A stretch of DNA of 64,000 bases from Candidatus Azobacteroides pseudotrichonymphae (GTDB taxonomy: Bacteria > Bacteroidota > Bacteroidia > Bacteroidales > Azobacteroidaceae), in contig AP017914.1 in assembly GCA_002091395.1 (NCBI GenBank), positions 62,001 to 126,000 of the forward strand, read 5' to 3'. The notes below the pieces were generated by a model. It was not told the origin of the DNA. It did not search any database and saw nothing but the letters and a program-made list of their open reading frames with translations. Position 1 is the first letter of the stretch, and each line of letters starts with the position of its first letter. Of this stretch, positions 5,264 to 61,988 are shown piece after piece. A program made the translations under genes and the position numbers.

Positions 5264-6667
5264 ATGAAGAATTATAGAGATACAATTTGTGCGATAGCGA
5301 CACCTCCAGGTCGAGGAAGTGTCGCTATGATAAGGGTTTCTGGTGAAGGAGCTATTGTTATTGTTGATAAAATATATACACCTATAACCAAACATACTAC
5401 GTTTAGGGCTCAAGCTTCATATACCATAACTTATGGGACCATATATAAAAAAAATAAAATATTGGATAAAGTTATTGCATCTGTATTTCGATCTCCTAAT
5501 TCTTTTACAGGAGAAGATATTGTTGAAATAACATGTCATGGATCAGTTTATATTCAAGAGGAAATAATTAAATTATTAATAGATAATGGGTGTTTTTTAG
5601 CTCAACCAGGAGAATTTACTAAACGTGCTTTTTTAAATGGAAAAATAGATTTGACTCAGGCAGAAGCTATAGCTGATTTGATTTCTTCTTCTTCAGATAC
5701 TTCTCATAGTCTTGCATTTAATCAAATGAGAGGTGAATTCAGTAAAAAATTAAAAAATCTTCGATCTCAATTACTTCAATTTAGTTCTTTAATCGAATTA
5801 GAATTAGATTTTGGGGAAGAAAATACAGAATTTGTAAATCAAACAAATTTATTAAGTCTAGTTTCTTCTATTGAGAATACATTATTACGATTAATTAAAT
5901 CTTTTGATTTAGGGAATGCTGTTAAAAATGGAATTCCAGTAGCAATTGTAGGAGAAACTAATGTTGGCAAGTCAACTTTACTTAATTATTTGTTGAATGA
6001 AGAAAGATCTATTGTTTCAGAAATTCACGGTACAACAAGAAACAGTATAGAAGAAGTAATAAATATTAATGGTACGATTTTCCGATTTATAGATACGGCA
6101 GGTATTCGTAATACAAAAAATAAAGTAGAAGTTCTAAGTATTAATCGAACTTATCAAATAATCGATAAAGCTTTTCTTGTTATTTGGATGGTTGACGTTA
6201 CATCTTTTAGCAAAAGATGTAAACTTATTACTGATCGTATTATTTCTTTAACTAGTGGGAAAAAATTAATTATAATTTTTAATAAAATTGATAAATTAAA
6301 TTCTGATGTGCAATCTTCTTTAAAAGAGAAATTTTTATTAAAAATACCTTTTGTTGACCACATTTATTTATCTGCTAAATGCGGTAAAAATATAGATATT
6401 TTGATAGAAACACTACTAAAAGTTGTGAATTTTGTAAATGTAGATCGAGGTGATGTAACAATAACTAATTTAAGACATTATAAAGCGTTAAAATTGGCCT
6501 TGAAATCTATTCATAGAATAAAAAACGGACTGAAAACAAATATTTTTTCTGAATTTATTTCGCAAGATATATGTGAATGTACTAGTTATCTTGGTGAAAT
6601 CAGTGGAGAAATTACATCAGATGAAATATTGAAAAATATATTTAAAAATTTTTGTATTGGGAAATAA
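5264..6667 (+). CDS. mnmE: tRNA modification GTPase MnmE (TrmE)
   Basis: With MnmG (not in this window) it installs the carboxymethylaminomethyl group on wobble U34 of certain tRNAs. From ATG 5264 the protein is 467 residues, the family length. The N-terminal folate-binding domain starts with MKNYRDTICAIATPPGRGSV. The G domain has GETNVGKS (near residue 229), GTTR, DTAGIR and NKID. The C-terminus is the invariant FCIGK, whose Cys is needed for activity. A TTG at 5198 would add 22 hydrophobic residues absent from relatives, so the ATG is preferred. Two perfect inverted repeats lie in the gene (5294-5328 and 6198-6222). Confidence 0.96.
   Translation: MKNYRDTICAIATPPGRGSVAMIRVSGEGAIVIVDKIYTPITKHTTFRAQASYTITYGTIYKKNKILDKVIASVFRSPNSFTGEDIVEITCHGSVYIQEEIIKLLIDNGCFLAQPGEFTKRAFLNGKIDLTQAEAIADLISSSSDTSHSLAFNQMRGEFSKKLKNLRSQLLQFSSLIELELDFGEENTEFVNQTNLLSLVSSIENTLLRLIKSFDLGNAVKNGIPVAIVGETNVGKSTLLNYLLNEERSIVSEIHGTTRNSIEEVININGTIFRFIDTAGIRNTKNKVEVLSINRTYQIIDKAFLVIWMVDVTSFSKRCKLITDRIISLTSGKKLIIIFNKIDKLNSDVQSSLKEKFLLKIPFVDHIYLSAKCGKNIDILIETLLKVVNFVNVDRGDVTITNLRHYKALKLALKSIHRIKNGLKTNIFSEFISQDICECTSYLGEISGEITSDEILKNIFKNFCIGK
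5294..5328. repeat. intragenic inverted repeat in mnmE, 10-bp arms
   Basis: ATAGCGACAC at 5294-5303 and its exact reverse complement at 5319-5328, with a 15-nt spacer. It lies at the conserved CAIATPPGRGSVAMI segment near the start codon, so an mRNA hairpin could affect translation, or it may be coincidental. Confidence 0.6.
6198..6222. repeat. intragenic inverted repeat in mnmE, 11-bp arms
   Basis: TTACATCTTTT at 6198-6208 and its exact reverse complement at 6212-6222, spacer 3 nt, in the poorly conserved part of the G domain before the NKID motif. Confidence 0.7.
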
Positions 6668-6752
6668 ATAATTCTTTAATTTTAATAATTGTACAACAAT
6701 TTAATTAATGGTATAAATGATAATATAAAAATATTAGTCTTGTTATGTTATG

Positions 6753-7586
6753 TTATGTGGTTTTGTTTTTTAGTTTTAGCCCTTTATAGGTAATATATAT
6801 TCCTGCAATAATAAATGGAATACTTAATAATTGGCCCATGTTTAGTATCATATTTTTTTCGAATGGTTCTTGCACATTTTTGTAAAATTCAATCAAAAAT
6901 CTAGAAAAAAAGATACAAATTAAAAATATACCAAAAATAAGACCTTGATACATATAATATTTTTTCTTCCAATACATCCACAAGCAAAGACAAGCAGTAA
7001 GTGCGTAAAAAAATGCTTCATAAAGTTGTGTAGGATGCGAAGGCTCTGTAAAAATTGGATTCATACCTTGATGTACGTAAGTAAGATTTTTTATAAAAAC
7101 AAATGCCCAAGGGACATTTGTTTGTTGTCCATATATTTCATGGTTTATCAAATTTCCTATACGAATCAAGAATGCTACAAACCCAACTGGAATTACTAAT
7201 CTGTCAAATGTCCATAACATGCTTTTATGTGTTATTTTTTTTGAAAAGATCCATACAGCAATAATAATTCCAATTGTTCCTCCGTGACTTGACAGCCCAC
7301 CTTCCCAAATCTTAATTATGTTAATAGGATTTTGTAAGTAATAATTTGGGTTATAAAATATGCAATGGCCCAAACGAGAACCTATGGTGCTAGAAATTAT
7401 TATGTAAATGAACAGCTTATCAAACCATATTTCACTTAATTTTTCTTTTTCCCATATTTTTTGAACAATCCAAGAACCTATTGCGAATCCAGTAGCGAAA
7501 GCAATTCCGTACCAGCGTATTTCACGTTCAATAAGTGGAATAGTAAATGCTATTGGATCAATTTTCCATACAATAAAAGAAAGCAT
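6753..7586 (-). CDS. lgt: prolipoprotein diacylglyceryl transferase
   Basis: Integral membrane enzyme that moves diacylglycerol from phosphatidylglycerol onto the lipobox cysteine of prolipoproteins. The 277 residues have about seven hydrophobic segments. Family signatures are present: IWEGGLSSHGG near residue 95, the RIGNLINHEIYG segment near 145 (Lgt signature RxGNxxNxExxG) and HPTQLYEA near 183. It starts at ATG 7586 (minus) and converges with mnmE, whose stop is 85 bp away. Its retention implies that lipoproteins are still made. LspA and Lnt are not in this window. Confidence 0.95.
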   Translation of the reverse strand: MLSFIVWKIDPIAFTIPLIEREIRWYGIAFATGFAIGSWIVQKIWEKEKLSEIWFDKLFIYIIISSTIGSRLGHCIFYNPNYYLQNPINIIKIWEGGLSSHGGTIGIIIAVWIFSKKITHKSMLWTFDRLVIPVGFVAFLIRIGNLINHEIYGQQTNVPWAFVFIKNLTYVHQGMNPIFTEPSHPTQLYEAFFYALTACLCLWMYWKKKYYMYQGLIFGIFLICIFFSRFLIEFYKNVQEPFEKNMILNMGQLLSIPFIIAGIYITYKGLKLKNKTT

Positions 7587-7771
7587 TGTTAGAATTAAAA
7601 ATTATTCGCAATGATAACTTTTTTTTTTTATTTTTGAGAATATTTTTAAAATATTTAATTTGAAGTTAAGTATTTGACTGTTAAAATTTTGTAAAATTTA
7701 TTAAAATATTTTTAGTAAATTCTTCATTTCTATTATAAATGCAATTGAATTTGTAATTTTATATTTGTTTT

Positions 7772-9244: not shown

Positions 9245-9357
9245 CAAAATCGTATACTCTTGTATAATATGTTATTATAGAATTTGAATTCTGTAATTTT
9301 TAAAATTTTGATTTTTTGTTTCTATTGCGATTATTTGTAATGTAAATATTGTTAATT

Positions 9358-12300
9358 ATGTCTAAAGAAAAAAAATTTTTGACATGTGACGGCAATCAAG
9401 CTGCAGCTCATATTGCTTATATGTTTAGCGAAGTTGCATCAATTTATCCAATTACGCCTTCTTCTACTATGGCTGAGTATATTGATGAATGGGCAGCTGT
9501 CGGGCGGAAAAATATTTTTGGAGAAGTTGTTCGTGTAGATGAAATGCAATCAGAAGTTGGTGCTGCTGGAGCAATGCATGGAGCGCTGCAAGTAGGAATG
9601 TTATCAACTACATTTACAGCTTCACAAGGTTTATTATTAATGATACCAAATATGTACAAAGTTGCTGGAGAATTGTTACCTGGTGTTTATCACGTGTCAG
9701 CTCGTGCTTTAGCTTCACATGCATTATCTATTTTTGGTGATCATCAAGATGTAATGGCTGTTCGTCAAACAGGTTGTGCTATGTTTGCTACTAGTTCAGT
9801 ACAAGAAATAATGGATTTAGCAGCTGTTGCTCATTTATCAGCAATTAAATCTAGAATACCTTTTGTTCATTTTTTTGATGGATTTCGTACTTCGCATGAA
9901 ATTCAAAAAATAGAACAGTTGAATAATGAAGATTTATCTACGTTAGTTGATCATGAAGCTTTATCAAAATTTCGTAAACGATCATTGAATACAGATACTC
10001 CAGTTGCTCGTGGTATGGCTCAAAATTCAGATATTTATTTTCAGATTCGTGAAGCTTCAAATTTGTTTTATAGTAGAGCCGTGCATATTGTAGAATATTA
10101 TACAAATCAACTTTCTAAGTTAGTAGGGCGTAAGTATGGTTTATTTGATTATTACGGTTCCAAGTATGCAGACCGTATAATTGTTGCTATGGGATCAGTT
10201 ACTGAAACTATTAAAGAAACGATTGATTATTTAATTTCTAATAATGAAAGAGTAGGTTTAGTTTCTGTACATTTATATCGCCCATTTTCTGTAAAGCATT
10301 TCTTAGATGTTATACCTAAGACAGTTGAACGAGTTGCTGTTCTTGATCGAACAAAAGAACATGGGGCTATTGGAGAACCTCTTTATTTGGATGTAAAATG
10401 TTGTTTTTATGCTTTTAATGTATCTACTTTAGTTATTGGTGGTCGTTATGGGTTGTCTTCAAAGGATACAACTCCTGCCTGTATTCTTGCTGTTTATGAA
10501 AATTTATCTTTACATAGTCCAAAAAATAATTTTACTGTTGGTATTACAGATGATGTTACTTTTACATCACTTCCAAAGAAAAAAGAATTAATTTTTGAAA
10601 ATGGACCTTTTGAAGCTAAATTTTATGGATTTGGGTCAGATGGAACGGTTGGGGCAAATAAAAATTCCATTAAAATTATTGGAGAAAACACTAGTAAATA
10701 TTGTCAAGCGTATTTTGATTATGATTCTAAAAAATCTGGAGGGGTTACTTCTTCACATTTGCGTTTTGGGAATAACCCTATTCGTTCTACTTACCTAGTG
10801 AATACACCGGATTTTGTTGCTTGTCATACTCAAGCATATCTCCGTTTGTATGATGTGACTAAGGGGTTAAAGAAAAATGGAATTTTCCTTTTGAATACAA
10901 CATGGGATGAAAAACTAATTAATGAAAAACTTCCTGATAGTGTAAAAAAATATTTAGCTATTAACGATATCAATTTTTATATTATTGATGCAACTAGTAT
11001 TGCTCGTGAAATTGGATTAGGTAATAGAATTAATACAATTCTTCAATCAGCATTTTTTAAAATAACTGGTATTATCCCTTATGATTTGGCTGTGAAACAA
11101 ATGAAAAAATTTATTATAAAATCTTATGGGAAAAAGGGAGAAGATATTGTAAACATGAACTATGCAGCAGTTGATCGTGGAATTGATTTGTTAAAAATTG
11201 AAATTCCTTCTGATTGGAAAAATATTCAATTAACATTGTGTGAAATAAAAAAAGAAGGGGTCTCTGATTTTGTTTCAAAAGTTGTTTACCCTATTAATAT
11301 GCAAAAAGGTGATAATCTTCCTGTTTCCGCTTTTACTGGTTATGAGGATGGAACTTGGGAGCAAGGAACTTCTGTTTATGAAAAACGCGGTGTGGCAGCA
11401 CATGTTCCTGCTTGGATTCCAGATAACTGTATTCAATGTAATAAGTGTTCGTATGTTTGTCCCCATGGAGCTATTCGCCCGTTTATATTAGACATAAATG
11501 AACAGATTAAAGCTCCTTCAGGACTGATTACTTTAAAAGCTGTTGGAAGACAATTTGAAAAAATGAGATTTCGTATACAAGTTGATATATTAGATTGTTT
11601 AGGATGTGGAAATTGTTTAGATGTTTGTCTAGGAAATAAAAATGGTAAAGCTTTGAAAATGTCTCCAATTGAAGTCGAGTACAGTAATCAAATCAATTGG
11701 GATTTTTGTATAAAAGATGTAAAAACTAAACAACATTTAGTAGATATTTCATTAAATGTAAAAAATTCACAATTTGCTACTCCGTTATTTGAGTTTTCAG
11801 GAGCCTGTTCAGGGTGTGGAGAGACTCCTTATGTAAAATTGATTTCTCAATTATTTGGAGATCATCAAATGGTAGCTAATGCTACTGGCTGTTCTTCTAT
11901 TTATTCTGGGTCAGCTCCTTCGACTCCTTATACTAAAAATTCAGAAGGGCATGGTCCTGCATGGTCAAATTCTTTATTTGAAGATAATGCAGAATATGGA
12001 TTAGGTATGCTTATTGGAACTGAGAAAATGCGTGATCGTGTAGAACGGTTAATGATACAAGGGTTATCTTGCTCTAGTTGTTCAACAGAAAAGAAAACTT
12101 TATTCAATGATTGGATCAATAATCGTTCTAGTTATTCTATAACTAGAACGATAGCTGATAAATTGATTCCTATGTTAGATAAGGATGATTGTGATATTTG
12201 TAAACAGTTGCTTGAATTATCACACTATTTTGTGAAGAGATCACAATGGATTATTGGTGGAGATGGCTGGGGATATGACATTGGATTTGGTGGATTGGAT

Positions 12301-12900
12301 CATGTGATTGCTTCAGAGCAAAATGTAAATATTCTTGTATTGGACACTGAGGTGTATTCTAATACAGGTGGCCAGTCATCTAAATCTACTCCAGTTGGTG
12401 CTGTAGCTAAATTTGCTTCTACTGGAAAACGTACTCGTAAAAAGGATTTGGGATTAATTGCTGTTACTTATGGTTGTGTTTATGTAGCCAAAATAGCTAT
12501 GGGAGCCAATCAATCACAAACTTTAAAAGCTATCTGTGAAGCAGAATCATATGATGGGCCATCATTGATAATTGCTTATGCTCCTTGTATTAATCATGGA
12601 TTAAAAAATGGAATGGGGAAAGTGCAAGAAGAGCAAAGATTAGCTGTTGAATGTGGTTATTGGAATCTTTGGAGATTTGATCCACGTTTAAAAATTAAAG
12701 GCGAAAATCCTTTTCAATTAGATTTTAAAGAACCAAATTGGGATAAATTTAAATATTTTTTAAAAAATGAAGTTCGGTTTTCTTCTTTAGAGAAACAATG
12801 CCCTGAAGAGGCTGGAAAAATTTTTAATATAACACAAGAGAATGCTAAATACAGATTAAATGTTTACAAATGTTTAGCGTCTAATTTTTACGGAATGTAA
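9358..12900 (+). CDS. nifJ: pyruvate:ferredoxin (flavodoxin) oxidoreductase
   Basis: Oxidises pyruvate to acetyl-CoA and CO2 and passes electrons to ferredoxin or flavodoxin. It is the single-chain form of 1180 residues from ATG 9358; a TTG three codons earlier is less likely. Domains in order: pyrimidine-binding/pyruvate domain (YPITPSSTMAEY near the start), the CoA/transketolase-C-like middle, a ferredoxin domain with CIQCNKCSYVCP (near 690) and CLGCGNCLDVC (near 746), then CSGCGETPYV (near 816) and the TPP-binding GDGWGYDIGFGG (near 968) with NTGGQSSKSTP. All Cys of the two ferredoxin-type clusters are present. The small ferredoxin at 23528 is a likely acceptor. A 14-bp-arm inverted repeat lies at 12122-12152. 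Confidence 0.98.
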   Translation: MSKEKKFLTCDGNQAAAHIAYMFSEVASIYPITPSSTMAEYIDEWAAVGRKNIFGEVVRVDEMQSEVGAAGAMHGALQVGMLSTTFTASQGLLLMIPNMYKVAGELLPGVYHVSARALASHALSIFGDHQDVMAVRQTGCAMFATSSVQEIMDLAAVAHLSAIKSRIPFVHFFDGFRTSHEIQKIEQLNNEDLSTLVDHEALSKFRKRSLNTDTPVARGMAQNSDIYFQIREASNLFYSRAVHIVEYYTNQLSKLVGRKYGLFDYYGSKYADRIIVAMGSVTETIKETIDYLISNNERVGLVSVHLYRPFSVKHFLDVIPKTVERVAVLDRTKEHGAIGEPLYLDVKCCFYAFNVSTLVIGGRYGLSSKDTTPACILAVYENLSLHSPKNNFTVGITDDVTFTSLPKKKELIFENGPFEAKFYGFGSDGTVGANKNSIKIIGENTSKYCQAYFDYDSKKSGGVTSSHLRFGNNPIRSTYLVNTPDFVACHTQAYLRLYDVTKGLKKNGIFLLNTTWDEKLINEKLPDSVKKYLAINDINFYIIDATSIAREIGLGNRINTILQSAFFKITGIIPYDLAVKQMKKFIIKSYGKKGEDIVNMNYAAVDRGIDLLKIEIPSDWKNIQLTLCEIKKEGVSDFVSKVVYPINMQKGDNLPVSAFTGYEDGTWEQGTSVYEKRGVAAHVPAWIPDNCIQCNKCSYVCPHGAIRPFILDINEQIKAPSGLITLKAVGRQFEKMRFRIQVDILDCLGCGNCLDVCLGNKNGKALKMSPIEVEYSNQINWDFCIKDVKTKQHLVDISLNVKNSQFATPLFEFSGACSGCGETPYVKLISQLFGDHQMVANATGCSSIYSGSAPSTPYTKNSEGHGPAWSNSLFEDNAEYGLGMLIGTEKMRDRVERLMIQGLSCSSCSTEKKTLFNDWINNRSSYSITRTIADKLIPMLDKDDCDICKQLLELSHYFVKRSQWIIGGDGWGYDIGFGGLDHVIASEQNVNILVLDTEVYSNTGGQSSKSTPVGAVAKFASTGKRTRKKDLGLIAVTYGCVYVAKIAMGANQSQTLKAICEAESYDGPSLIIAYAPCINHGLKNGMGKVQEEQRLAVECGYWNLWRFDPRLKIKGENPFQLDFKEPNWDKFKYFLKNEVRFSSLEKQCPEEAGKIFNITQENAKYRLNVYKCLASNFYGM
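12122..12152. repeat. intragenic perfect inverted repeat in nifJ, 14-bp arms
   Basis: Arms 12122-12135 and 12139-12152 are exact reverse complements with a 3-nt spacer. The segment encodes NRSSYSITRTIAD, between the third cluster region and the TPP domain. Confidence 0.9.
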
Positions 12901-13291: not shown

Positions 13292-14116
13292 ATGAAAATT
13301 TTTCAAGTAGATATTTGGGAAATTTTTTTGAAAAAATTTCCTTATTTATATATGAAAATGCCGTCGTTTGTTATCAAACTACTTGCTTGGTTTGTCTGTC
13401 AGAATCGAATAAATAAATTTTTTTCCATAAATGCTAATCTTACAGGTGTAGCATTTATGGAAAAAATTATCAAAGATAATCACATTACTATTAATTTAGA
13501 TGGAATAGAAAATATACATTTTACTGATAAAAGGAGATATATTTTTGTATCAAATCATCCATTAGGCGGATTAGATGGAATTTGTTTATCTGCTATATTG
13601 GGAAGGTATTACAATGGGAATATAAGATATCTAGTTAATGATATCTTATATTTTATAGAACCGTTACGAGATATTTTTATTCCTATTAATAGATATGGAA
13701 GACAGACTAAAAATGTAGTTAATATTTTAAATAAAGTATTTGATTCTCAAAGTCAAGTTATTACGTTTCCAGCCGGAATGTGTTCACGAAAAATAAATGG
13801 TAAAATTATGGACCTTGAGTGGAAAAAAATGTTTGTTATAAAAGCAATTAAGCACTGTAGAGACGTTGTTCCAATATATTTTGAAGCTACAAATTCTTGT
13901 TTATTTTATACAATTTCTAATTTCCGTAAACGTATAGGAATAAGGTTTAATGTTGAAATGTTACTTCTGCCTAGAGAAATGTTTAAAGCATTTGGAAGTG
14001 AATTTACTGTTCATTTTGGAAAGCCTATTGCTTGGCAAACGTTTGATTTGTCCAAAACAGCATTGCAATGGGCAAATGAAGTAAAAAAAATGGTTTATTC
14101 TATGGAAAGAAAGTAA
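13292..14116 (+). CDS. PlsC-type O-acyltransferase, GlsA-like (glycine lipid)
   Basis: 274 residues with a lysophospholipid-acyltransferase fold. The active-site block is FVSNHPLGGLDGICL near residue 85, with His and Asp six positions apart as in the hemolysin-linked branch rather than the classic HX4D. Next come PINRYGRQ and the FPAGMCSRK substrate block. The gene lies 26 bp upstream of a GNAT-type partner. In Bacteroides the equivalent pair (glsB/glsA) makes N-acyl glycine and then the di-acylated glycine lipid, so this would be the O-acylation step at the inner membrane. That role is inferred from family and pairing; ordinary 1-acylglycerol-3-phosphate acyltransferase activity is the alternative. 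Two intragenic palindromes lie at 13318-13341 and 13619-13652. Confidence 0.8.
   Translation: MKIFQVDIWEIFLKKFPYLYMKMPSFVIKLLAWFVCQNRINKFFSINANLTGVAFMEKIIKDNHITINLDGIENIHFTDKRRYIFVSNHPLGGLDGICLSAILGRYYNGNIRYLVNDILYFIEPLRDIFIPINRYGRQTKNVVNILNKVFDSQSQVITFPAGMCSRKINGKIMDLEWKKMFVIKAIKHCRDVVPIYFEATNSCLFYTISNFRKRIGIRFNVEMLLLPREMFKAFGSEFTVHFGKPIAWQTFDLSKTALQWANEVKKMVYSMERK
13318..13341. repeat. intragenic inverted repeat, 11-bp arms
   Basis: Arms 13318-13328 and 13331-13341 are exact reverse complements (GGAAATTTTTT type) with a 2-nt spacer, near the start of the acyltransferase gene. The arms are mostly A/T, so a chance match is possible. Confidence 0.55.
13619..13652. repeat. intragenic inverted repeat, 13-bp arms
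   Basis: AATATAAGATATC at 13619-13631 pairs exactly with 13640-13652; spacer 8 nt. It encodes NIRYLVNDILYF, a segment just after the active-site block of the acyltransferase. Confidence 0.85.
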
Positions 14117-15308: not shown

Positions 15309-17126
15309 TCATTGAATTTGAAGAACTGGAAGAATAACTTGTCTATAATCATGATTTTTCCAAATGTTGAATAATTTTATTTGTTCATGGTTTTTTTCTT
15401 TCACTATAAAATATTTAGTTATTTTTTCATCAATTTTTTCAGTTGCTTTATTTAGGAAAACTGTAAGTATATCTTTTTTTTCAGGATATTTTACAATTTG
15501 ATAATTTTTTATGTTAGCTAGCCTTAAGGCTGTTAATATAGCTGTATTTATATCTCCTAATTCATCTATTAAGTTTAGTGATAAGGCTTGTTTGCCAGTC
15601 CATATATGTCCTTGAGCAAGTACATCAATTTGTTTTTTTGTTTTTTTTCGTCCTTCGGCAACACGTTTTAGAAACAGGTCATACCCTTTTTCTATATAAG
15701 ACTGCACCATAGCACTTTCTATAGTGTTTAAAGCTCTTGCTGGTAAAAGTCCTATTCCTAGTAATGGGATTGATAACATATCTCCTCCAAAATTTGAATG
15801 TAAGTTAGTTGACACATGATCGTGTGTTGCTCCAATAGTCTTTGCCAACTGCATGCCGTTAGGTATTAATCCGAAAATTCCTATGGATCCTGTTATTGTA
15901 GTTGGTTCAGCAATAATTTTATTCGCTATACAGGCGATATAATACCCTCCTGATGCAGCATAGTCCCCCATTGATACAACAACAGGTTTTACTTGTTTTA
16001 GAGATTTGATTGCATGCCAAATTTGTTCAGATGCATAAGCACTACCGCCATGAGAATTGATACGAAAAATTACAGCTTTAATAGTAGGATCTAGTTTTAA
16101 TTTTTTTAATTCTTTTATGTATTCTTTAGAATTAATGTAATTTTTCGAATAAAAAGTTGATGATGATTCATCTGGAATAATTTCACCTTCTGCGTATAAA
16201 ATAGCAATTTTGTCACATCCGGTGGTTTTTGTTGTCGTTGACTTAATTGCTAGATCTTTAGTACTTATGAAGTTTAGTTTGCAATTGTGTTTAGTTCCTA
16301 CTTTATGTTTTAATAAAAATTCTATTTCATCATCATATTTTAAACCATCAATTAGTTTGTAAGATACAATAGAATCAGGATCAGAAAAAGCCAAGCATTT
16401 GTCTGCATATTTGTTCAACTTATATATAGAAATTTTTCGGCTTTTAGATATACCTACTAATAATGTTGTCCAAATATCAGATAGAAGATTATATGTTTGG
16501 TTGCGATTAAAACTACTCATTTTGTTTGAAGTATAAGGTTCAACTGCAGATTTATAAATTCCAACTTTATAAATCTGCAGTTGAACGCCACATTTTTTTA
16601 GAATATTTTTATTATACTGAATAGATGTTGATAAACCGCGAAAATCAAACATTCCTATTGGATTCATATAAATCTCATCAGCAACTGAACTTATATAATA
16701 TGAATTGTGGTTGAAATTATCTCCGTAAGCAATAACAAATTTTTTAGTTTTTTTAAAATCTATTAAAGCTTCCCTAATAGATTCTAAACTTGCATATCCT
16801 GATTTTATTTGCCCTGCTTGAATATAAATGCCACTAATTTTTTTATTATTTTTTGCTTCTTTTATAGCGGCGAGAACAGTGTCAAGGTCTTGAGTTTCAA
16901 TTATTTCTTTGTTAAAGATTGAGAACATGAAATTTTTGTTTTCTCTGTCAACAATTGTTCCATTCAAATTTAATTTGAGTATACTTTCATTTTGTAAAGG
17001 ATAATAATGATTTTTGATATCAAAAGTGATATGTCCGATTATTATTATTGATAAAACAAACAAAATGATACATGCGATAATTACTCCAATGATAGAGGCT
17101 ATAATTGTTTTAATAAATTTTTTCAT
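15309..17126 (-). CDS. sppA: signal peptide peptidase SppA, 67K type
   Basis: Membrane-bound serine protease that degrades cleaved signal peptides. 605 residues, the long (tandem-domain) form. One N-terminal membrane helix (about residues 6-32). The catalytic Lys lies in KVGIYKSAVEP (near 193) and the nucleophile Ser in GDYAASGGYYIA (near 390); SHGGSAYASEQ precedes it. It starts at ATG 17126 on the minus strand. The exact segment around the catalytic Lys is built as a 21-bp-arm palindrome (16538-16586): VQLQIYK is encoded by the reverse complement of the codons for YKSAVEP. Otherwise the protein looks intact. Confidence 0.95.
   Translation of the reverse strand: MKKFIKTIIASIIGVIIACIILFVLSIIIIGHITFDIKNHYYPLQNESILKLNLNGTIVDRENKNFMFSIFNKEIIETQDLDTVLAAIKEAKNNKKISGIYIQAGQIKSGYASLESIREALIDFKKTKKFVIAYGDNFNHNSYYISSVADEIYMNPIGMFDFRGLSTSIQYNKNILKKCGVQLQIYKVGIYKSAVEPYTSNKMSSFNRNQTYNLLSDIWTTLLVGISKSRKISIYKLNKYADKCLAFSDPDSIVSYKLIDGLKYDDEIEFLLKHKVGTKHNCKLNFISTKDLAIKSTTTKTTGCDKIAILYAEGEIIPDESSSTFYSKNYINSKEYIKELKKLKLDPTIKAVIFRINSHGGSAYASEQIWHAIKSLKQVKPVVVSMGDYAASGGYYIACIANKIIAEPTTITGSIGIFGLIPNGMQLAKTIGATHDHVSTNLHSNFGGDMLSIPLLGIGLLPARALNTIESAMVQSYIEKGYDLFLKRVAEGRKKTKKQIDVLAQGHIWTGKQALSLNLIDELGDINTAILTALRLANIKNYQIVKYPEKKDILTVFLNKATEKIDEKITKYFIVKEKNHEQIKLFNIWKNHDYRQVILPVLQIQ
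16538..16586. repeat. intragenic perfect inverted repeat in sppA, 21-bp arms
   Basis: Arms 16538-16558 and 16566-16586 are exact reverse complements separated by 7 nt. The arms carry mixed bases (CAACTGCAGATT core), so this is not a low-complexity effect. The repeat covers the catalytic-lysine motif of SppA. Confidence 0.97.
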
Positions 17127-17299: not shown

Positions 17300-19273
17300 T
17301 CAAAATTTTATATCATTTATTGTTTTTTTTATGGATTCTAGTAAAGGTAGAACTGATATTGTACTTCCGGTAGCTTTTAGCATCCATTGAGTTGGGGTCA
17401 AATGCCCTATACAGTACATGCGATTTATTTCTTTAGCAAAATCTTTCCCATCTAAATATTGTTCTAGTTGAAATTCAATTATTTGGCCGTAAGCATAAGC
17501 TGACAAATATAAAGGGTAGCTTATCATATGTGAATAAATTGCTAATATCACTTGGTCTTGTAATCCAAATACTGACGCAAAATATTTATTCCAAATTTCT
17601 TTTGATAATCGAATTATTTCATTTTTTAATTGTTTTGCTGTGGAATTTGGATTTATGTATATCCACTTCCACACTGATATATCAAGCATAGAAACCCCAA
17701 TTATTTCATATAGAGTCCATGCTTTGTCTAATATTAATAAATTTGATTCTTCTTCTGAAGAATTTTTTCTATCAAATCCAAGTAATTCTAAATCACGTCT
17801 TTGAAAAATAAAAGCTAATGCTTCAGTGAAAGCAGTATTTGGAACTCCACTCAACAAATAGTAATCTACACCATAAAGAGAAAGTGTTTGTTCTACATTG
17901 TGACCAAGTTCGTGAATAGCCGTGTTATATCCTTTATAGTCCATTCCTTTAGTGCCTATAGGAGTACGTAGGTGTGATTGTTGTCCTTTCATTTCCGCAC
18001 CCCATGCATGGCCAGAACCTCGAGCAGAATCTACTGTAATTTTTTTACTAATATAATTTGCTCGTTCTGAGTCGAATCCTAATTTCTTTAGTATGGTATG
18101 TATTTTTTTTTCAAAAGCTTTTGCATTAGCATACAAGCTACGTGTTTTTGTATCTAGTATAGATTCACTTATGTTGCTACGATATTTAAACCCATCGTAC
18201 CAAATATCAAATGCTTCTAATTTTCTATTTAATCGTTTCGATATAATTTTACCTATAGTGTACAGCTCAGGAGATGACAGATAATTATGAAAAAATATTT
18301 CTGTATCTTTTACGGAAATTTCCATAGTTTCTGAAAAATAACGATCTATGTAAGTATTACCAGTATAACTATCAATTACTTGTAATGCTTTGAAATTATC
18401 TATAAATTTTTCGTATCTAGTGATTTTTTCTGGAGTTCCTATTTTTACTTTTTCATTTTTATAAATGATATTAGAAAATGGATCCCATTGATAATTATTA
18501 GAATGGATAACTTCTACTGGTATTTCTTGTAAAATAATACGTTTCATTACTTCATAAATTGTTTGTTGTTTTTCCAAACTTTCTTCTTTTTGAGTATAAT
18601 TAGCTTTTATTTCATCTCGTAATCCCCAATGTGAAAGCAGAATTTTTTCCTCATGAAATATTTTTTCCCCATTTTTTAATAGTTGTCCAATGTAAATATG
18701 ATAGTTTGATATATATACTTCAGCATTATTATGAGATATAGCACATTTTTGCTTTACAAAAGCTGGAATACGGTTTGTAAACAAATCACCCATGCGTGCA
18801 TATGCCAATAACAATCGGTTATCACCTAATTTTTCTTTCTCATCTAATGTTAATCTCGGAAAATTCAAAATAATAATAAAAGCAATTTTGCTTTTATATA
18901 GATCTTCTGACAAGTGTGAATCTGGACTGTATGATGAAAATAGTTTATCAATATATTGTAAAGGCCCTGTATTTTCATGAATATGACGTTGCAAACGAAA
19001 TAGCATTCCATTGAAATTTCCATTTATAGCTTCTAGATATTCACTTGTTTTAAAAAAAAGTTTTTTTTTCTCTTCTAAATCAGAATAGTAATTCTTTTTA
19101 CAAAAGATTATAAATTCATCATCTTCTCCATCAGTTAGTTCCCATAATTGAGCTACTTGTTTAACTCCTAGTTCTATTAATTCCTTATTATTTTTATCAA
19201 TCAGTAGAAGTGTTTTAATAGCTTCTTTTATAGTTGTTTCTTTGATGTGAGTAGTTTGCTGGTTTATTGTCAT
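17300..19273 (-). CDS. M3-like zinc metallopeptidase
   Basis: 657 residues. The zinc motif is HELGH (near residue 454) followed about 25 residues later by the third-ligand segment TEALAFIF, as in the thimet/oligopeptidase F (M3) clan. GSGHAWGAEM and the QSHLRTPIG segment before it, and the C-terminal YPLYLSAYAYGQ block, support a long helical oligopeptidase. No signal peptide is obvious (MTINQQTTHIKET), so a cytoplasmic peptide-degrading role is plausible. The ATG at 19273 (minus) is followed by a plausible helical N-terminus. It lies 173 bp upstream of sppA on the same strand; the two could degrade peptides in sequence, which is speculation. Confidence 0.75.
   Translation of the reverse strand: MTINQQTTHIKETTIKEAIKTLLLIDKNNKELIELGVKQVAQLWELTDGEDDEFIIFCKKNYYSDLEEKKKLFFKTSEYLEAINGNFNGMLFRLQRHIHENTGPLQYIDKLFSSYSPDSHLSEDLYKSKIAFIIILNFPRLTLDEKEKLGDNRLLLAYARMGDLFTNRIPAFVKQKCAISHNNAEVYISNYHIYIGQLLKNGEKIFHEEKILLSHWGLRDEIKANYTQKEESLEKQQTIYEVMKRIILQEIPVEVIHSNNYQWDPFSNIIYKNEKVKIGTPEKITRYEKFIDNFKALQVIDSYTGNTYIDRYFSETMEISVKDTEIFFHNYLSSPELYTIGKIISKRLNRKLEAFDIWYDGFKYRSNISESILDTKTRSLYANAKAFEKKIHTILKKLGFDSERANYISKKITVDSARGSGHAWGAEMKGQQSHLRTPIGTKGMDYKGYNTAIHELGHNVEQTLSLYGVDYYLLSGVPNTAFTEALAFIFQRRDLELLGFDRKNSSEEESNLLILDKAWTLYEIIGVSMLDISVWKWIYINPNSTAKQLKNEIIRLSKEIWNKYFASVFGLQDQVILAIYSHMISYPLYLSAYAYGQIIEFQLEQYLDGKDFAKEINRMYCIGHLTPTQWMLKATGSTISVLPLLESIKKTINDIKF
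18886..18907. repeat. intragenic inverted repeat, 10-bp arms
   Basis: ATAAAAGCAA (18886-18895) and its reverse complement (18898-18907), spacer 2 nt, inside the M3-like peptidase gene. Short and A/T-rich; it may be chance. Confidence 0.45.
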
Positions 19274-23695: not shown

Positions 23696-24256
23696 CACAT
23701 TATCGTAACTTTAATATTATATTTTGTAGAAAATGGATGTATTTTTACATAAAATGCGTCTGTTTTTATAAGTGATGCTGCAATCAAAATTTGATGCGTA
23801 GCTTATGATGTTTTATTGTTAATTTAATCTAAGTATCATGTTTTCGTGCGGTAGTATGTTTGATTTTAAAAATACACAAATTGATTTTTGTGTGCTATTT
23901 GACTATGAATTTTTTAAAAATTAGTTTATAATTGAAAACATTGCGAATGTTATTTGACTCACTTGTTAAGTAACATTCACTGAAAACTTAAAGTTTTTTG
24001 TTTGCATATCGGTTTGTAAATTATAGATTTTGTCAGTATGTGTTGTCACAAAACATAATATGTTTTGTGACAACTATTTTTTTGTATGTTAATTTTATTT
24101 TTATAAAAATATTTTGTTTTATTCAGTTACTATGTAATGGTTTTAATTGCTAAAATAGTTTAAATAAACAACTGAGTTAAAAATTAATATTTTTAAATTA
24201 TGAAATTATGTAATTAGATTTTTTGTTTTTTATTTCAATTTACTCATTTTGGATTT
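23696..24256 (+). other. intergenic gap ferredoxin-valS
   Basis: No gene recognised in 561 bp. It contains a near-continuous palindrome with a following T-run at 24043-24073 and weaker imperfect inverted repeats around 23880-23900 and 23950-23985. Confidence 0.6.
24043..24073 (+). terminator. perfect 15-bp-arm palindrome followed by T-run
   Basis: TTGTCACAAAACATA (24043-24057) and its reverse complement (24059-24073) with a single central base, followed by CTATTTTTTT. It has the shape of a Rho-independent terminator but sits about 350 bp past the ferredoxin stop. It could end a long 3' UTR or be one of the window's many palindromes. Confidence 0.5.
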
Positions 24257-26890: not shown

Positions 26891-27434
26891 AATTAGTACG
26901 AACAGTAGATACGTGCAAATTCATTCTCAACTTGGAAGTTGAATGTTGAAAATACGTGATAGTAGCAATTATTTTGAAGTGAATATTATGTAAATATTAA
27001 TTTTATATTGTTTGATGGTTTATTAAGTATGTAAATATTACTTTAAAAGTTACTATGTTAGTAATTAAAACTAATTTTAAATTAGTTATTTTGTTATATT
27101 AATATTTTTAATAAATGAGTAAAATATTGGTATATTAATTAATACAGATTGATTTTATCAAAAAGTTTGTAACTTTTTGATACTAAAATAAATTAAGAAA
27201 TTATATATATTGTAGGACCTTTTGTCACTTATAAGTGTGTTGTTATTTTCATTGTACGAAATTGTAACGACTTTTCCTAAAAAGGCATTTTTAATTTAAA
27301 ATATAATATTCCCATTGTTTTTATTTTAGTAGTTCAAATAAAAAATTGAAATTATTGTATAATTTTTTGCAATTATTATTGTTATTGATAACTCTGAGAT
27401 TAAATATTGGTTAGCATTGTTAAATGTTTAAATA
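26891..27434. other. convergent gap valS/dxs
   Basis: No gene seen between the convergent valS and dxs. It contains a 12-bp-arm hairpin (27156-27182), the 12-bp palindrome CACTTATAAGTG near 27226, and most of the 19-bp-arm repeat that spans the dxs stop (27413-27464). Confidence 0.6.
27156..27182. repeat. inverted repeat, 12-bp arms
   Basis: TATCAAAAAGTT (27156-27167) pairs exactly with 27171-27182; spacer TGT. It lies between convergent valS and dxs, so it may act as a transcription stop, although no clear T-tract follows on either strand. Confidence 0.7.
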
Positions 27435-27464
27435 TTATATTTCTATTAAACATTTAACAATGCT
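27413..27464. repeat. inverted repeat across the dxs stop codon, 19-bp arms
   Basis: Arms 27413-27431 and 27446-27464 are exact reverse complements (AGCATTGTTAAATG core), spacer 14 nt. The right arm lies in the last codons of dxs (SIVKCLI) and the left arm in the 3' UTR, so the dxs mRNA would end in a stable stem-loop. It could be a processing or stability element or a terminator lacking a T-tract. Confidence 0.9.
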
Positions 27465-29318: not shown

Positions 29319-29470
29319 TATTTTTTTATACTTAAATATACCAATTTTATTACAGATTTTTTCAGATATAATAGCGAAATTAATAACAAATTGATTTTTA
29401 AGAAAATTAACACATGTTGTATAAAATGTATTCAAAAATTTATCTATTTAGTTTTAGTATTAATGATTTA

Positions 29471-29611
29471 AAAAAAATATTAAATTTTTTAATGATAATA
29501 GTAATAATTAATGATTTTTAAGTAAAAAAAATTTTTATTCTATTTATTTTAATAAGTTTTAAGTTTATAAATTATAGTTTATTATAAACTTAAAAAATTT
29601 AATATTTTTTT
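29471..29611. repeat. inverted repeat pair A, 22-bp arms
   Basis: Arms 29471-29492 and 29590-29611 are exact reverse complements, entirely A/T, about 97 nt apart. The pair interlocks with pair B (order A, B, A', B'). Confidence 0.75.
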
Positions 29612-36670: not shown

Positions 36671-36810
36671 AAACCAAAAATTGTTTGATTAGAGTTAACA
36701 AAATTTTAGTTTGATTATTATTGAATTTCAAAATTATAAAAATTATTTTTGATATGTTATAGTGTACATTTTTTATTAAGTATAAACTGTAAAATAATAA
36801 TTAATATTTG

Positions 36811-38730: not shown

Positions 38731-38781
38731 TGCAAATTTGTTTATGAATATTGATACCAAATATTCATAAACAAATTTGCA
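38731..38781. repeat. perfect inverted repeat, 22-bp arms
   Basis: Arms 38731-38752 and 38760-38781 are exact reverse complements with a 7-nt spacer. It is the longest short-spacer arm in the window and lies in the middle of the non-coding metG-rnz gap. Confidence 0.95.
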
Positions 38782-40338: not shown

Positions 40339-40381
40339 TGACAAATTATGAATATTATGAATAATTTGTCATTATATTTTC
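40333..40381 (+). terminator. rnz terminator-like hairpin, 17-bp arms
   Basis: Arms 40333-40349 and 40361-40377 are exact reverse complements, spacer 11 nt, followed by TTTT. The left arm includes the rnz stop codon. It probably separates rnz from the ribosomal cluster downstream. Confidence 0.7.
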
Positions 40382-43739: not shown

Positions 43740-43774
43740 AATATTATGTTTTTAGCACATAAAAACATAATATT
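43740..43774. repeat. inverted repeat fusA-rpsJ, 15-bp arms
   Basis: AATATTATGTTTTTA (43740-43754) and its exact reverse complement (43760-43774), spacer 5 nt. It begins 5 bp after the fusA stop inside the co-directional cluster, so it could be a processing site or attenuator separating the str and S10 parts. Confidence 0.85.
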
Positions 43775-43829: not shown

Positions 43830-44135
43830 ATGGGTAATAGAATTAGAATTAAGTTAAGATCTTACGATTATAATTTAGTAGATAAATCTGCTGAGAAAAT
43901 TGTTAAAACGATCAAAGGGATTGTTGATCATGTTAGTGGTCCAATTCCACTTCCAACTCAGAGGCGTGTTTTTACATTAAATCGTGCGACTTTTGTTAAT
44001 AAAAAATCTCGTGAGCAATTTGAGCTGGCTTCTTATAAGCGTTTGATCGATATTTACGCATCAACTACTAAAGTAGTTGATGCGTTGACAAGTTTAGATT
44101 TGCCTAGTGGTGTGGATGTTGAAATAAAAGGGTAG
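43830..44135 (+). CDS. rpsJ: 30S ribosomal protein S10
   Basis: 101 residues, complete: [34 protein letters not shown] and the C-terminal [11 protein letters not shown]. First gene of the S10 part. A perfect 14-bp-arm palindrome (44056-44085) encodes [11 protein letters not shown], where Bacteroides relatives have YSSTAKTVDAL, so several codons differ in a way that completes the palindrome. Confidence 0.96.
44056..44085. repeat. intragenic inverted repeat in rpsJ, 14-bp arms
   Basis: ACGCATCAACTACT (44056-44069), AA, then its exact reverse complement (44072-44085). The arms contain mixed bases. Confidence 0.93.
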
Positions 44136-56646: not shown

Positions 56647-56665
56647 CAGTTTATTTCGTAATAAA

Positions 56666-57283: not shown

Positions 57284-57301
57284 ATTAATATTTTTTGCGC
57301 A

Positions 57302-58285: not shown

Positions 58286-58287
58286 TA

Positions 58288-58925: not shown

Positions 58926-61223
58926 ATGAAAAAACCAATTAAATTCTTATTTATAATTTTTTGTGTATCAATTATTTTTATTGTTTCTTTTTTTACTTTA
59001 ATCATTACAGGAATAGTAGGAAATGTTCCTTCAGTAGAAGAATTGGGAAATCCAATTAATAAATATGCTACTCAAGTTATTTCGTCTGACATGAAAGTTA
59101 TGGGGACATATTCTCAAGATAAAGAAAACAGGATTTATGTAAATGATAGAAAACTTTCTAAATATATAATTTGGGCATTAATTGCTACTGAAGATGTACG
59201 TTTTATGAAACATTCTGGAATTGATTTTTATGCGTTGTTAAGATCAATAGTAAAGCGAGGATTTTTGTTTCAAGTTAGTGGCGGTGGCGGTAGTACTATT
59301 TCACAACAATTAGCAAAACAACTTTATTTTGAGCATGCAAAAAATTTTTTAGATCGTATTTTTCAAAAATCAATTGAGTGGGTAATTGCAGTCCAATTAG
59401 AGCGTTTTTATACTAAAGAGGAAATAATTGGTATGTATCTTAGCAAATTTGATTTTCTTTATAATGCGGTTGGAATCAGAGCAGCTTGCCACGTTTATTT
59501 TGGAAAATTGCCGCAAAATGTTAAAATAGAAGAAGCAGCCACTTTAGTTGGGATGTGTAAGAATCCATCTTATTTTAATCCGTTAAAACATTCAAAAAGA
59601 GCTCGAGGCAGACGAAATGTTGTTTTAACTCTGATGAGAAAAAATAATTGTATTTCTCAAAAAGAATGTGATTCACTGAAAATTTTACCTTTAATTACCA
59701 CATTCCATAAAGTGGATCATGATGATGGTATTGCTCCATATTTTAGAGAATATTTACGTTTGTTAATAACAGCTGAAAAACCAAACAGAAAAGATTATGA
59801 TTTTAGTAATATTTGCAGATATACAGAAGATTCTATAGCGTGGGAAACTAACCCATTATATGGATGGTGTAATAAGAATAAAAAATCAAATGGGTTAGCG
59901 TATGATCCTTATACTGATGGATTAAAAATATATACTACGTTGAATTCACGTATGCAAATTTACGCAGAACAAGCTGTTCGTGAACACGTAGGAAATTTTT
60001 TACAACCTATTTTTTTAAAGGAGAGTAGAAATAATCCAATGGCTCCTTATTCTTTTTCAATTGGGAAAAATGTTGTTGATACTATATTGGCACGTGCGAT
60101 GAAACAAACTGATAGGTATCAGATATTGAAAAAAAGAAATATATCCGAAAATGTAATCAAAATTATTTTTAATAAACCAATAGAAATGCAAGTTTTTTCA
60201 TGGGCTGGAGAAAAAGACACGATTATGTCTCCAATGGATTCAATTCGTTATATGAAATCTTTTCTTCGTTCAGGATTGATGTTAATGGATGCTCATTCTG
60301 GAGCAGTGAAAGTTTATATTGGAAATATTAATTATAAATATTTCCAATATGATATGGTAAGTATGGGGAAAAGACAAGTTGGTTCTACTATTAAACCTTA
60401 TTTGTACTCACTTGCGATGGAAAATGGATTTAGTCCATGTGATGAAGTAGTTCATGAGCCACAAGAATTAATTACTGAAACAGGAGAGGTATGGTCACCT
60501 AAAAACACTAATAAAATGCAAAATGGTAAAGTTACTCTTTATTGGGGATTACAGCATTCTGATAATTGGGTGTCTGCTTATTTGATAAAGCATTTATCTC
60601 CTTATTCTTTTAAACAAATATTACTTTCTTATGGATTATCTGAGCCTATTAATCCAGTAATGTCTTTGTGTTTGGGATCTTGTGAAGTCTCTGTAGAGCA
60701 AATGGTATCTGGATACTCTGTTTTTCCAAACAGAGGAGCTCGTTTTATTCCAATGTTTGTTACACGTATCGAAGATAGACATGGTAATATAATATCTACT
60801 TTTTATCCAAAAATTCATATTGTAATCAGTGAACAAGCAAATTATAAAATGCTGAGTATGTTGAGATCTGTAATTGATAATGGCACAGGACGTGGTATTC
60901 GTCTGTATACTACAGTGCAAATGGGAGGAAAGACAGGAACAACTCAAAATAACTCTGATTGTTGGTTTGTAGGATTTACACCATCAATTATAGGAGGATG
61001 TTGGGTTGGTGGTGAAGATCGTTCGATACATTTTAATAAAATGAGTGATGGGCAGGGAGCAAAAGCAGCATTACCAATTGTTGGTATTTTTTTTAAAAAA
61101 TTGTTTGCAGATACAAAATTAGGATATTCTTCATCTGATCAATTTATTGTTCCACAACAATTTAGCAATATTCGTATATCAAAAGATGAGTATGAACAGG
61201 ATACAATAGAGAGTGTTAATTAA
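58926..61223 (+). CDS. class A penicillin-binding protein (PBP1)
   Basis: Bifunctional peptidoglycan synthase, 765 residues with an N-terminal membrane anchor (about 6-30). Glycosyltransferase motifs: EDVRFMKHSGIDFYAL (near 89), GGGSTISQQLAKQLY and the QKSIEWVIAVQLERFYTKEE block. Transpeptidase motifs: SxxK in GSTIKP (near 485), SDN in HSDNW and KTGTT (near 668). So both activities should be intact. It retains cell-wall synthesis together with murF. A 14-bp-arm palindrome lies at 60316-60350. It converges with cdaA, 3 bp away. Confidence 0.95.
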   Translation: MKKPIKFLFIIFCVSIIFIVSFFTLIITGIVGNVPSVEELGNPINKYATQVISSDMKVMGTYSQDKENRIYVNDRKLSKYIIWALIATEDVRFMKHSGIDFYALLRSIVKRGFLFQVSGGGGSTISQQLAKQLYFEHAKNFLDRIFQKSIEWVIAVQLERFYTKEEIIGMYLSKFDFLYNAVGIRAACHVYFGKLPQNVKIEEAATLVGMCKNPSYFNPLKHSKRARGRRNVVLTLMRKNNCISQKECDSLKILPLITTFHKVDHDDGIAPYFREYLRLLITAEKPNRKDYDFSNICRYTEDSIAWETNPLYGWCNKNKKSNGLAYDPYTDGLKIYTTLNSRMQIYAEQAVREHVGNFLQPIFLKESRNNPMAPYSFSIGKNVVDTILARAMKQTDRYQILKKRNISENVIKIIFNKPIEMQVFSWAGEKDTIMSPMDSIRYMKSFLRSGLMLMDAHSGAVKVYIGNINYKYFQYDMVSMGKRQVGSTIKPYLYSLAMENGFSPCDEVVHEPQELITETGEVWSPKNTNKMQNGKVTLYWGLQHSDNWVSAYLIKHLSPYSFKQILLSYGLSEPINPVMSLCLGSCEVSVEQMVSGYSVFPNRGARFIPMFVTRIEDRHGNIISTFYPKIHIVISEQANYKMLSMLRSVIDNGTGRGIRLYTTVQMGGKTGTTQNNSDCWFVGFTPSIIGGCWVGGEDRSIHFNKMSDGQGAKAALPIVGIFFKKLFADTKLGYSSSDQFIVPQQFSNIRISKDEYEQDTIESVN
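60316..60350. repeat. intragenic inverted repeat in the PBP gene, 14-bp arms
   Basis: ATATTGGAAATATT (60316-60329) pairs exactly with 60337-60350; spacer 7 nt. It encodes VYIGNINYKYFQYDM, a variable segment before the SxxK motif. Confidence 0.9.
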
Positions 61224-61226
61224 ATA

Positions 61227-61988
61227 TTAAATTTTTAGTAGTAATTCTTGTAATTTTTCTGTTGAAACATTGTTATATAGATGATTTTTGTACGCCAATG
61301 AAATTTTACCTGTTTCTTCAGAAAGAACGATAATTTTGGCATCACTTTGTTCACATAGACCTAGTGCTGAACGATGACGTAATCCATGTGATGGATGGAT
61401 ATTTTTTTTCCGAGAAATAGGTAATATACATGCAGCAGCAGCAACTCTTTTATTTGCAATAATTATTGCCCCATCATGTAAAGGACTGTTTTTAAAAAAA
61501 ATGTTTTCTATTAGTCTTGTGTTAATATTTGCATCTATATTTTCTCCAGTTTTTATAAAAAAATCTAATGGTATACTCTGTTGTATAACTATTAAGGCTC
61601 CTTCTCTCCTTTTTGACAAGTTAATTAAAGCTATTATAATTGGTTTACTATAAGAAATGTCATTTTGTTTATTTTTTAATTTTATTAGTTTCATCAAAAT
61701 TTTTATTTCTTTAGTTGAACCCAAATTTTGAAGAAATTCTCTAATTTCTTTTTGAAAAAGAGTAATCAATAAAATAATTCCTACATCGATGAATTTATCT
61801 AAAATACTTCCTATAATATGCATTTGTAATTCTTTGGATACTAGTATCCAAAGAATTACAAAAAATAGTATTCCTATAAAAACAGGTATAGTACCTGTTT
61901 TTTTCATTAAACGATAAGTTCTATAAATAAAAAAAACTACTAAAATAATATCAATAGTATCTTTTACTTTTATATTGAAATATGTCAT
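61227..61988 (-). CDS. cdaA: diadenylate cyclase (c-di-AMP synthase), CdaA/DacA type
   Basis: Makes cyclic di-AMP from two ATP. 253 residues: about three N-terminal membrane helices (residues 10-75), then the DAC domain with SPLHDGAIIIANKRVAAA (DGA motif near 171) and LRHRSALGLCEQSDA (RHR motif near 202). Start ATG 61988 overlaps folP by 4 bp, a conserved Bacteroidetes pairing. Two palindromes lie in the membrane part: a 40-bp perfect palindrome at 61823-61862 and an 11-bp-arm repeat at 61878-61902. Confidence 0.95.
   Translation of the reverse strand: MTYFNIKVKDTIDIILVVFFIYRTYRLMKKTGTIPVFIGILFFVILWILVSKELQMHIIGSILDKFIDVGIILLITLFQKEIREFLQNLGSTKEIKILMKLIKLKNKQNDISYSKPIIIALINLSKRREGALIVIQQSIPLDFFIKTGENIDANINTRLIENIFFKNSPLHDGAIIIANKRVAAAACILPISRKKNIHPSHGLRHRSALGLCEQSDAKIIVLSEETGKISLAYKNHLYNNVSTEKLQELLLKI
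61823..61862. repeat. 40-bp perfect palindrome inside cdaA
   Basis: Arms of 20 bp (61823-61842/61843-61862) with no spacer, mixed bases (TCTTTGGATACT core). On the coding strand it encodes FVILWILVSKELQ, in the second/third membrane helix region. Confidence 0.97.
61878..61902. repeat. inverted repeat in cdaA, 11-bp arms
   Basis: AAAAACAGGTA (61878-61888) and its exact reverse complement (61892-61902), spacer TAG, only 16 bp from the 40-bp palindrome. It encodes MKKTGTIPVF. Confidence 0.8.

Follow-up and report, generated by a model that had tools for sequence, protein, structure and literature searches.

The stretch of DNA analysed here (the window) comprises 64,000 nucleotides, positions 62001-126000 of chromosome 2 of Candidatus Azobacteroides pseudotrichonymphae ProJPt-1, a bacterium living inside a termite-gut protist. 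The genes of the window, among them nifJ, sppA, metG, rpsJ and cdaA, and the spaces between them contain perfect inverted repeats with short spacers (Table 1). Using a purpose-written script and defining a repeat by perfect arms of at least 13 bp and a spacer of at most 20 nt, we found 18 of them. Open reading frames (ORFs) were taken by a simple longest-ORF rule, with a minimum of 120 aa in most counts, so that small genes were counted as noncoding. Such ORFs in the window hold 9 repeats, where 10 synonymous-codon shuffles, which preserve the protein and the codon usage, lead one to expect 0.20. The original prediction, made from the letters of the window alone, had named 17 repeats and all 17 are present, with some corrections: the one placed at 24043 starts at 24042 and has 16-bp arms, those at 27413 and 40333 reach into the 3′ ends of ORFs rather than lying wholly between genes, the one at 35997 has arms of 21 bp rather than 20 bp, with a G-T mispair, and an 18-bp repeat in the acyltransferase gene had been overlooked. 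The gene names hold by NCBIfam or Pfam, except that for 'rnz' only a beta-lactamase-superfamily domain is seen. The chance estimate of about 0.1 repeat per 64 kb was of the right order, the dinucleotide shuffles of the chromosomes implying about 0.3.

Close inverted repeats in the window and in the genome

The excess predicted for the window extends over both ProJPt-1 chromosomes and holds against codon- and dinucleotide-preserving shuffles alike. In the chromosomes (minus 2,500 masked bases) and 92,485 of the 101,987 bases of the small contigs there are 182 repeats, 152 and 30 respectively, with arms of 13-31 bp. The 152 chromosomal repeats compare with 4.33 expected from 3 local dinucleotide shuffles. 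Coding DNA on both chromosomes (729 kb) has 56, while 108 synonymous-codon shuffles average 3.23 and never exceed 10, and noncoding DNA has 85 against 3.00 expected (3 shuffles). The sister genome CFP2 (the 1,114,206-bp chromosome minus 8,000 masked bases, plasmids left out) shows a weaker coding excess, 18 repeats against a mean of 1.34 and a maximum of 4 in 65 synonymous-codon shuffles, and 45 noncoding repeats against 0.33 expected. Three slightly overlapping control groups were counted for coding repeats: 80 named Bacteroidota loci (1,118,238 bp) have 5 against 0.50 expected, 56 loci of large genus members (170,706 bp) have 0 against 0.00, and 13 stretches from three large genus members (214,404 bp) have 1 against 0.40. 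Other genomes therefore have a small coding excess at most, and the strong excess is confined to the two small symbiont genomes.

An artefact of whole-genome amplification (WGA) or of assembly has to be considered as the source of these repeats, as the ProJPt-1 DNA was obtained by WGA of cells from a single protist cell (PMC5478533). The phage ProJPt-Bp1, which comes from the same WGA sample and was sequenced to similar depth (224x, against 192-250x), has in its 99.5 kb only 1 repeat that reaches the 13-bp arm minimum, whereas host DNA of that size averages 16.5 over both chromosomes, with chromosome 1 windows varying from 3 to 26; with a GC content of 42% the phage is an imperfect control, and at arms of at least 11 bp it does show a slight excess (4 against 0.30 expected). 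The CFP2 DNA was presumably amplified likewise. Repeats with one to three mismatches are in excess in both genomes, as decay after formation gives, and the open frames kept at coding repeats also speak against an artefact. The paired-end libraries were PCR-free and PacBio reads were mapped to verify the assembly (PMC5478533), which does not necessarily mean that the DNA was unamplified. We regard this explanation as very improbable. Frame-breaking repeats were considered as a sign of artefact and set aside: with CFP2 ORFs and ORFs from 260 kb of three large relatives as the reference, 3 of the 122 noncoding repeats turned out to be in sequence alignable to proteins. A decayed mfd gene has two of these, and the third is in rpsJ, a gene below the ORF cut-off.

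Table 1. Inverted repeats of the window, with the genes or spaces in which they lie (window coordinates; spacers in nt).
Position	Strand	Repeat	Spacer	Gene or context	Remark
12122-12152	+	14-bp perfect inverted repeat	3	pyruvate:ferredoxin oxidoreductase nifJ (9349-12900)	outside the polarity-scored set (two relatives aligned)
13419-13466	+	18-bp perfect inverted repeat	12	glsA-type acyltransferase (13292-14116)	overlooked originally
13619-13652	+	13-bp perfect inverted repeat	8	acyltransferase (13292-14116)	residues of both arms same as CFP2
16538-16586	-	21-bp perfect inverted repeat	7	sppA (15309-17126)	outside the 51 with a CFP2 ortholog
32327-32353	+	13-bp perfect inverted repeat	1	FAA-hydrolase family gene (32039-32668)	
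38086-38112	+	13-bp perfect inverted repeat	1	metG (36808-38493)	
39740-39773	+	15-bp perfect inverted repeat	4	beta-lactamase-superfamily gene (39433-40338)	originally called 'rnz'
44056-44085	+	14-bp perfect inverted repeat	2	rpsJ (43830-44135)	changes partly common to CFP2, no clean one-arm case
60316-60350	+	14-bp perfect inverted repeat	7	penicillin-binding protein gene (58926-61223)	novel residues: 5′ arm 2/5, 3′ arm 0/5
61823-61862	-	20-bp perfect palindrome	0	cdaA (61227-61988)	3′ arm rewritten
2888-2929		20-bp inverted repeat	2	intergenic	
24042-24074		16-bp inverted repeat	1	intergenic	
27413-27464		19-bp inverted repeat	14	overlaps 3′ end of ORF 27435-29435 (minus)	
29557-29595		14-bp inverted repeat	11	intergenic	
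35997-36041		21-bp inverted repeat, one G-T mispair	3	intergenic	longest perfect run 13, spacer 19
38731-38781		22-bp inverted repeat	7	intergenic	
40333-40377		17-bp inverted repeat	11	begins at 3′ end of ORF 39433-40338 (plus)	
43740-43774		15-bp inverted repeat	5	intergenic	

The window also contains, at 17300-19273 on the minus strand, a 657-aa ORF for which NCBIfam gives no match at E 0.001. On the smallest ProJPt-1 contig, the inverted repeats at 6527 and 7059, 0.5 kb from each other, have 26-27-bp arms that are almost identical in sequence.

Repeat form and comparison with relatives

The excess in ProJPt-1 is confined to inverted repeats with spacers below about 20 nt. Per nucleotide of spacer length there are 17.0 inverted repeats at spacers of 0-4 nt, 8.0 at 5-9, 3.6 at 10-14 and 1.8 at 15-19, and then 0.2-0.5, whereas mirror repeats number 0-0.6 and direct repeats 0.2-1.2 per nucleotide below 20 nt. 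The ends are sharp, as pairing is at background level immediately outside the arms. Coding repeats fall 23, 22 and 15 times in the three codon phases, an uninformative distribution. As a separate matter, CFP2 has 56 direct repeats with arms of at least 13 bp at spacers of 0-4 nt against 6 in the ProJPt-1 chromosomes, a tandem-duplication excess in one sister.

The two symbionts differ in the state of their repeats. Among sites with 18 pairs and a spacer of at most 12 nt, ProJPt-1 has 38 that are perfect, 22 with one mismatch and 41 with two (expected 0, 0.5 and 5.5), and CFP2 has 5, 13 and 30 (expected 0, 0 and 1.0). Because perfect repeats outnumber those with one mismatch in ProJPt-1 and the reverse holds in CFP2, the process looks recently active in ProJPt-1 and its products more decayed in CFP2.

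CFP2 is the nearest relative compared, with a median protein identity to ProJPt-1 of about 72%. Sixty repeats, small contigs included, lie inside ORFs, and 51 of these have a CFP2 ortholog. The same palindromes are not kept at the same sites: a paired run of at least 9 is retained in CFP2 for 1 of the 51, and in the reverse direction in ProJPt-1 for 2 of 18 CFP2 repeats. Orthologous CFP2 arm positions do pair more often than random placements (385 of 740, against 0.276, sd 0.017), which a quasipalindrome seed, shared sequence or both would produce; common ancestry of the bases raises the figure. The arms have diverged more than randomly placed segments of the same genes, with amino-acid identity to CFP2 of 0.567 against 0.675 (sd 0.024; none of 400 controls below 0.606) and nucleotide divergence of 0.294 against 0.252 (reached by 0 of 300 controls), and the divergence difference between the two arms is 0.167 against 0.137 (8 of 300). 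Only 13 of 515 arm codons are gaps relative to the CFP2 orthologs, so sequence has been replaced and not inserted.

This near-absence of insertion bears on the idea that a dispersed palindromic element, similar to REP or Rickettsia palindromic elements, has been inserted widely. A few arms do share 12-mers, with 4 links among the 152 chromosomal arms, for which 5 control draws give 0-1 links, and 3 among the 30 of the small contigs; the arms nevertheless have no common sequence, as originally noted from the window. With no shared sequence and few gap codons, we rejected a palindromic element family, to which we give next to no credence.

The direction of change was assessed for the 26 longest-arm repeats out of 37 with well-conserved flanks, 24 of which could be scored. 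Up to five relatives were used (CFP2 and the genomes G004, G008, G011 and G022, the latter four supplying 90 of 92 matches, two with internal stops being dropped), and 1000 sets of windows of the same geometry, placed in the flanks, served as controls. The worse arm departs from the relatives at 20 of 48 invariant columns, where the control fraction is 0.194 (sd 0.041) and no set of the 1000 reaches the observed value; the better arm breaks 2 of 63, with a control of 0.061. Novel residues make up 0.383 of the worse arm against 0.274 (0 of 1000), and with both arms pooled 0.198 of invariant columns are broken against 0.130 (3 of 1000). In the longest case, with 31-bp arms in the gene at 264055-264672 of chromosome 1 (C1), the two arms have 1 and 6 novel residues out of 10. 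In cdaA of the window, the 5′ arm encodes the same residues as in CFP2, and in the 3′ arm a Glu stands at a position occupied by Ile, Val or Met in the 28 other aligned sequences. These comparisons support the view that one arm is a near-ancestral source and that the other has been rewritten. The expectation that the repeats alter the less-conserved residues is not borne out, as the changes in rewritten arms often fall on residues that do not vary among relatives.

Template switching as the probable cause, and its alternatives

We consider the repeats to be scars of quasipalindrome template switching, with a probability of roughly 0.78. In such an event, a growing strand would quit its template during replication at a site that is already partly self-complementary, copy the other arm, using either the nascent or the sister strand, and then return to the template; a single step would turn one arm into an exact complement of its partner. 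The replication setting, the single step and the route are inferred. Template switching had been one of the causes originally proposed, and it fits repeats that are inverted and short-spacered only, that are not conserved in the sister and in which one arm is rewritten relative to relatives. Part of the events may have involved strand switching between molecules. Spacers of 0, 1 and 2 nt account for 21, 20 and 20 of the 182 repeats, where 2.3, 11.1 and 5.4 are expected from a simple model that requires a loop of 3 nt or more for every event and lets inner bases pair by chance at 0.30. That such spacers are about three times commoner than this fold-back model gives favours intermolecular, between-strand switching for part of the repeats.

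Several observations weigh against this interpretation. Control windows also show unequal arms, and the gap in conservation score between the arms is marginal (reached by 98 of 1000 controls). The better arm is not wholly untouched, as 0.148 of its residues are novel against 0.107 in controls (45 of 1000), and the less diverged arm is likewise above control (0.210 against 0.183; 8 of 300). Compensated double differences, in which both partners have changed, are slightly over control (23 of 64, or 0.359 against 0.241; 9 of 300), which could reflect either repeated conversion or pairing under selection. No bias with fork direction is seen, the derived arm being upstream in 9 and downstream in 6 of 15 clear cases as judged by local GC skew. 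Finally, no event has been seen directly, and because the nearest relative has a median protein identity of only about 72% the events cannot be timed.

The compensated differences are also what one might cite for selection on mRNA hairpins, the other cause originally suggested, by which repeats would be built for stability, translation pausing or termination. T-rich tails on noncoding repeats point in the same direction, as a strict rule finds them after 12 of 122, and a looser one after 29 of the 88 chromosomal repeats and 6 of the 25 from small contigs. A minority of the noncoding repeats may thus be terminators; as a general explanation, terminators were rejected, since T runs are found in a minority and a mean arm GC of 12-20% does not describe GC-rich stems. 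Against selection on hairpins are the retention of only one of the 51 coding repeats in the sister species and the AT-richness of the arms, which in genes have 21% GC against 29% for coding DNA. Moreover, the rewritten arms break invariant residues, whereas selection on RNA would be expected to act at synonymous sites, and a search of the whole window with Rfam at the gathering score matched a tRNA only. We therefore judge selection for mRNA hairpins to be improbable, though a little less so than an artefact.

Template switching of this kind has been described in other systems, which are considered here through excerpts of the respective papers. In E. coli (PMC7202029, PMC6357072), one arm is rewritten and an imperfect repeat becomes perfect, as is proposed for ProJPt-1; the E. 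coli work used engineered lacZ reporters and found a leading-strand bias, whereas no bias is seen here (9 against 6). In Saccharomyces cerevisiae (PMC8604942), arms are homogenised within genes, with replacement of neighbouring amino acids and short spacers as in ProJPt-1, by intramolecular as well as intermolecular routes; those events were detected between strains and have arms mostly of 7-11 bp, whereas the arms here are 13-31 bp long and come from a single genome. The mitochondria of Nematomorpha (PMC6649704) also have many perfect inverted repeats in protein genes, similar too in being perfect or absent, and template switching was proposed for them; their arms are much longer, up to 284 bp, and the genome is mitochondrial, whereas some decayed repeats exist here. 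Template switching has further been described as a source of RNA stems (PMC8794818).

The genus itself has been noted before. In excerpts of a 2014 survey (PMC4060949), Azobacteroides is listed among the genera in which coding palindromes and close inverted repeats are extremely over-represented, and template switching is cited as a proposed source of coding inverted repeats. The survey concerns the same genus and the same feature, and it predates the publication of ProJPt-1; its excerpts give no loci, arm polarity or comparison with relatives, all three of which are given here. In a literature search that was without most subscription papers and took in Azobacteroides as well as palindromes and template switching of endosymbionts, we found no title on this process in the organism. 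What is new here is the evidence on polarity and the ProJPt-1 genome, over-representation at the level of the genus being already known. The copying errors that most likely gave rise to the repeats are known from elsewhere and are unusually common in ProJPt-1.

Repair genes and the level of the repeats

Repair genes were searched by tblastn with E. coli references and then with profiles over 38 genomes, the two symbionts and 36 others of the genus of 1.4-5.4 Mb. Both ProJPt-1 and CFP2 have recA, mutS, mutL, uvrA, uvrB, uvrD, ruvABC, recG, recR and polA. With the E. coli references no match was found in either symbiont for sbcC, sbcD, recJ or xseA, nor for recC, recO, dnaQ and dinB, which are possibly too divergent to detect. 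The profiles of xseA and recJ score over the cut-off in 30 and 32 of the 36 other genomes, and that of sbcD in 8, with weaker matches in 24 more; none of the three has a match in either symbiont. The sisters differ in other repair genes: recF has no tblastn match in ProJPt-1 and a clear one in CFP2, and recQ gives only a weak match in ProJPt-1. The gene for the transcription-repair coupling factor, mfd, encodes an equivalog in CFP2, while in ProJPt-1 (C1 479447-482362) it is decayed, split over frames and without an ORF; two of the inverted repeats, one with arms of 15 bp and the other of 23 bp, lie in the decayed gene.

In E. coli, ExoI and ExoVII lower the frequency of quasipalindrome mutation; the literature searched yielded no text on ExoVII and quasipalindromes. 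For recB mutants of E. coli, an excerpt gives a 13-fold higher rate with a leading-strand reporter (PMC6357072). We propose, tentatively, that the high level in ProJPt-1 is due jointly to the loss of nucleases that could remove the intermediates (ExoVII, RecJ and SbcCD being undetected) and to the weakness of selection in a small population of symbionts. A stronger version appears more doubtful still, namely that the joint loss of ExoVII, RecJ and SbcCD made template switching, largely between strands and not by hairpin fold-back, a leading source of multi-residue protein change in ProJPt-1, with conserved proteins being rewritten a few codons at once.

Some results speak against a role of the nucleases. 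The sbcD profile is below the cut-off or without a match in 28 of the 36 other genus members. Nine control loci from genomes without an xseA match (127,635 bp) have 1 coding repeat against 0.00 expected, where about 10 would be found at the ProJPt-1 rate, and 17 loci with an xseA match (249,441 bp) also have 1; these 26 loci were picked from the 80 named Bacteroidota loci, and their genomes are of unstated completeness. CFP2, moreover, has a noncoding density no higher than that of the controls. As the controls lacking ExoVII have no comparable excess, the loss of ExoVII alone was rejected as the cause. The weak repair that had been suggested originally thus fits the undetected xseA, recJ, sbcC and sbcD as a correlation only. 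Across the class, xseA scores over the cut-off in 161 of 395 genomes, so that its absence is common; all 8 of the larger xseA-less genomes examined (2.7-4.3 Mb) retain recJ. A 0.5-Mb single-contig Bacteroidia genome (G062) has no match to xseA or recJ and offers a natural test case for the nuclease account.

The main alternative concerns the level of the repeats and not their origin: template switching may proceed at an ordinary rate, its products persisting because selection is too weak to purge them in a population that is small, clonal and intracellular and whose DNA is AT-rich. The coding excess is large, with 56 repeats in 729 kb where control DNA has 5 in 1.12 Mb and 1 in about 385 kb, but the contrast with the controls is smaller in noncoding DNA, where repeats without a T-tail number 344 per Mb in the ProJPt-1 chromosomes and 177, 75 and 92 per Mb in the three control groups, a difference of only about 2-5-fold. 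Such a contrast is expected if purifying selection hides the repeats in other genomes. The CFP2 noncoding density (118 per Mb) resembles that of the controls, the 80 control loci have a small coding excess of their own, and coding palindromes are over-represented in most phyla according to excerpts of the 2014 survey (PMC4060949). On the other side, ProJPt-1 noncoding DNA is still denser in repeats than every control group, and the preponderance of perfect over one-mismatch repeats in ProJPt-1 (38 against 22) but not in CFP2 (5 against 13) suggests a high recent rate. We rate an ordinary rate under weak selection at somewhat short of even odds; nuclease loss is a possible cause of the high level, and drift alone stays a serious alternative.

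ProJPt-1 is a natural example in which a process studied mostly with reporters and in yeast strains occurs often enough to be legible in the genes, and for the most part the direction of rewriting can be told. It also suggests a link, open to testing, between symbionts losing their single-strand nucleases and one particular kind of protein change. Clustered substitutions in such genomes need not mean adaptation.

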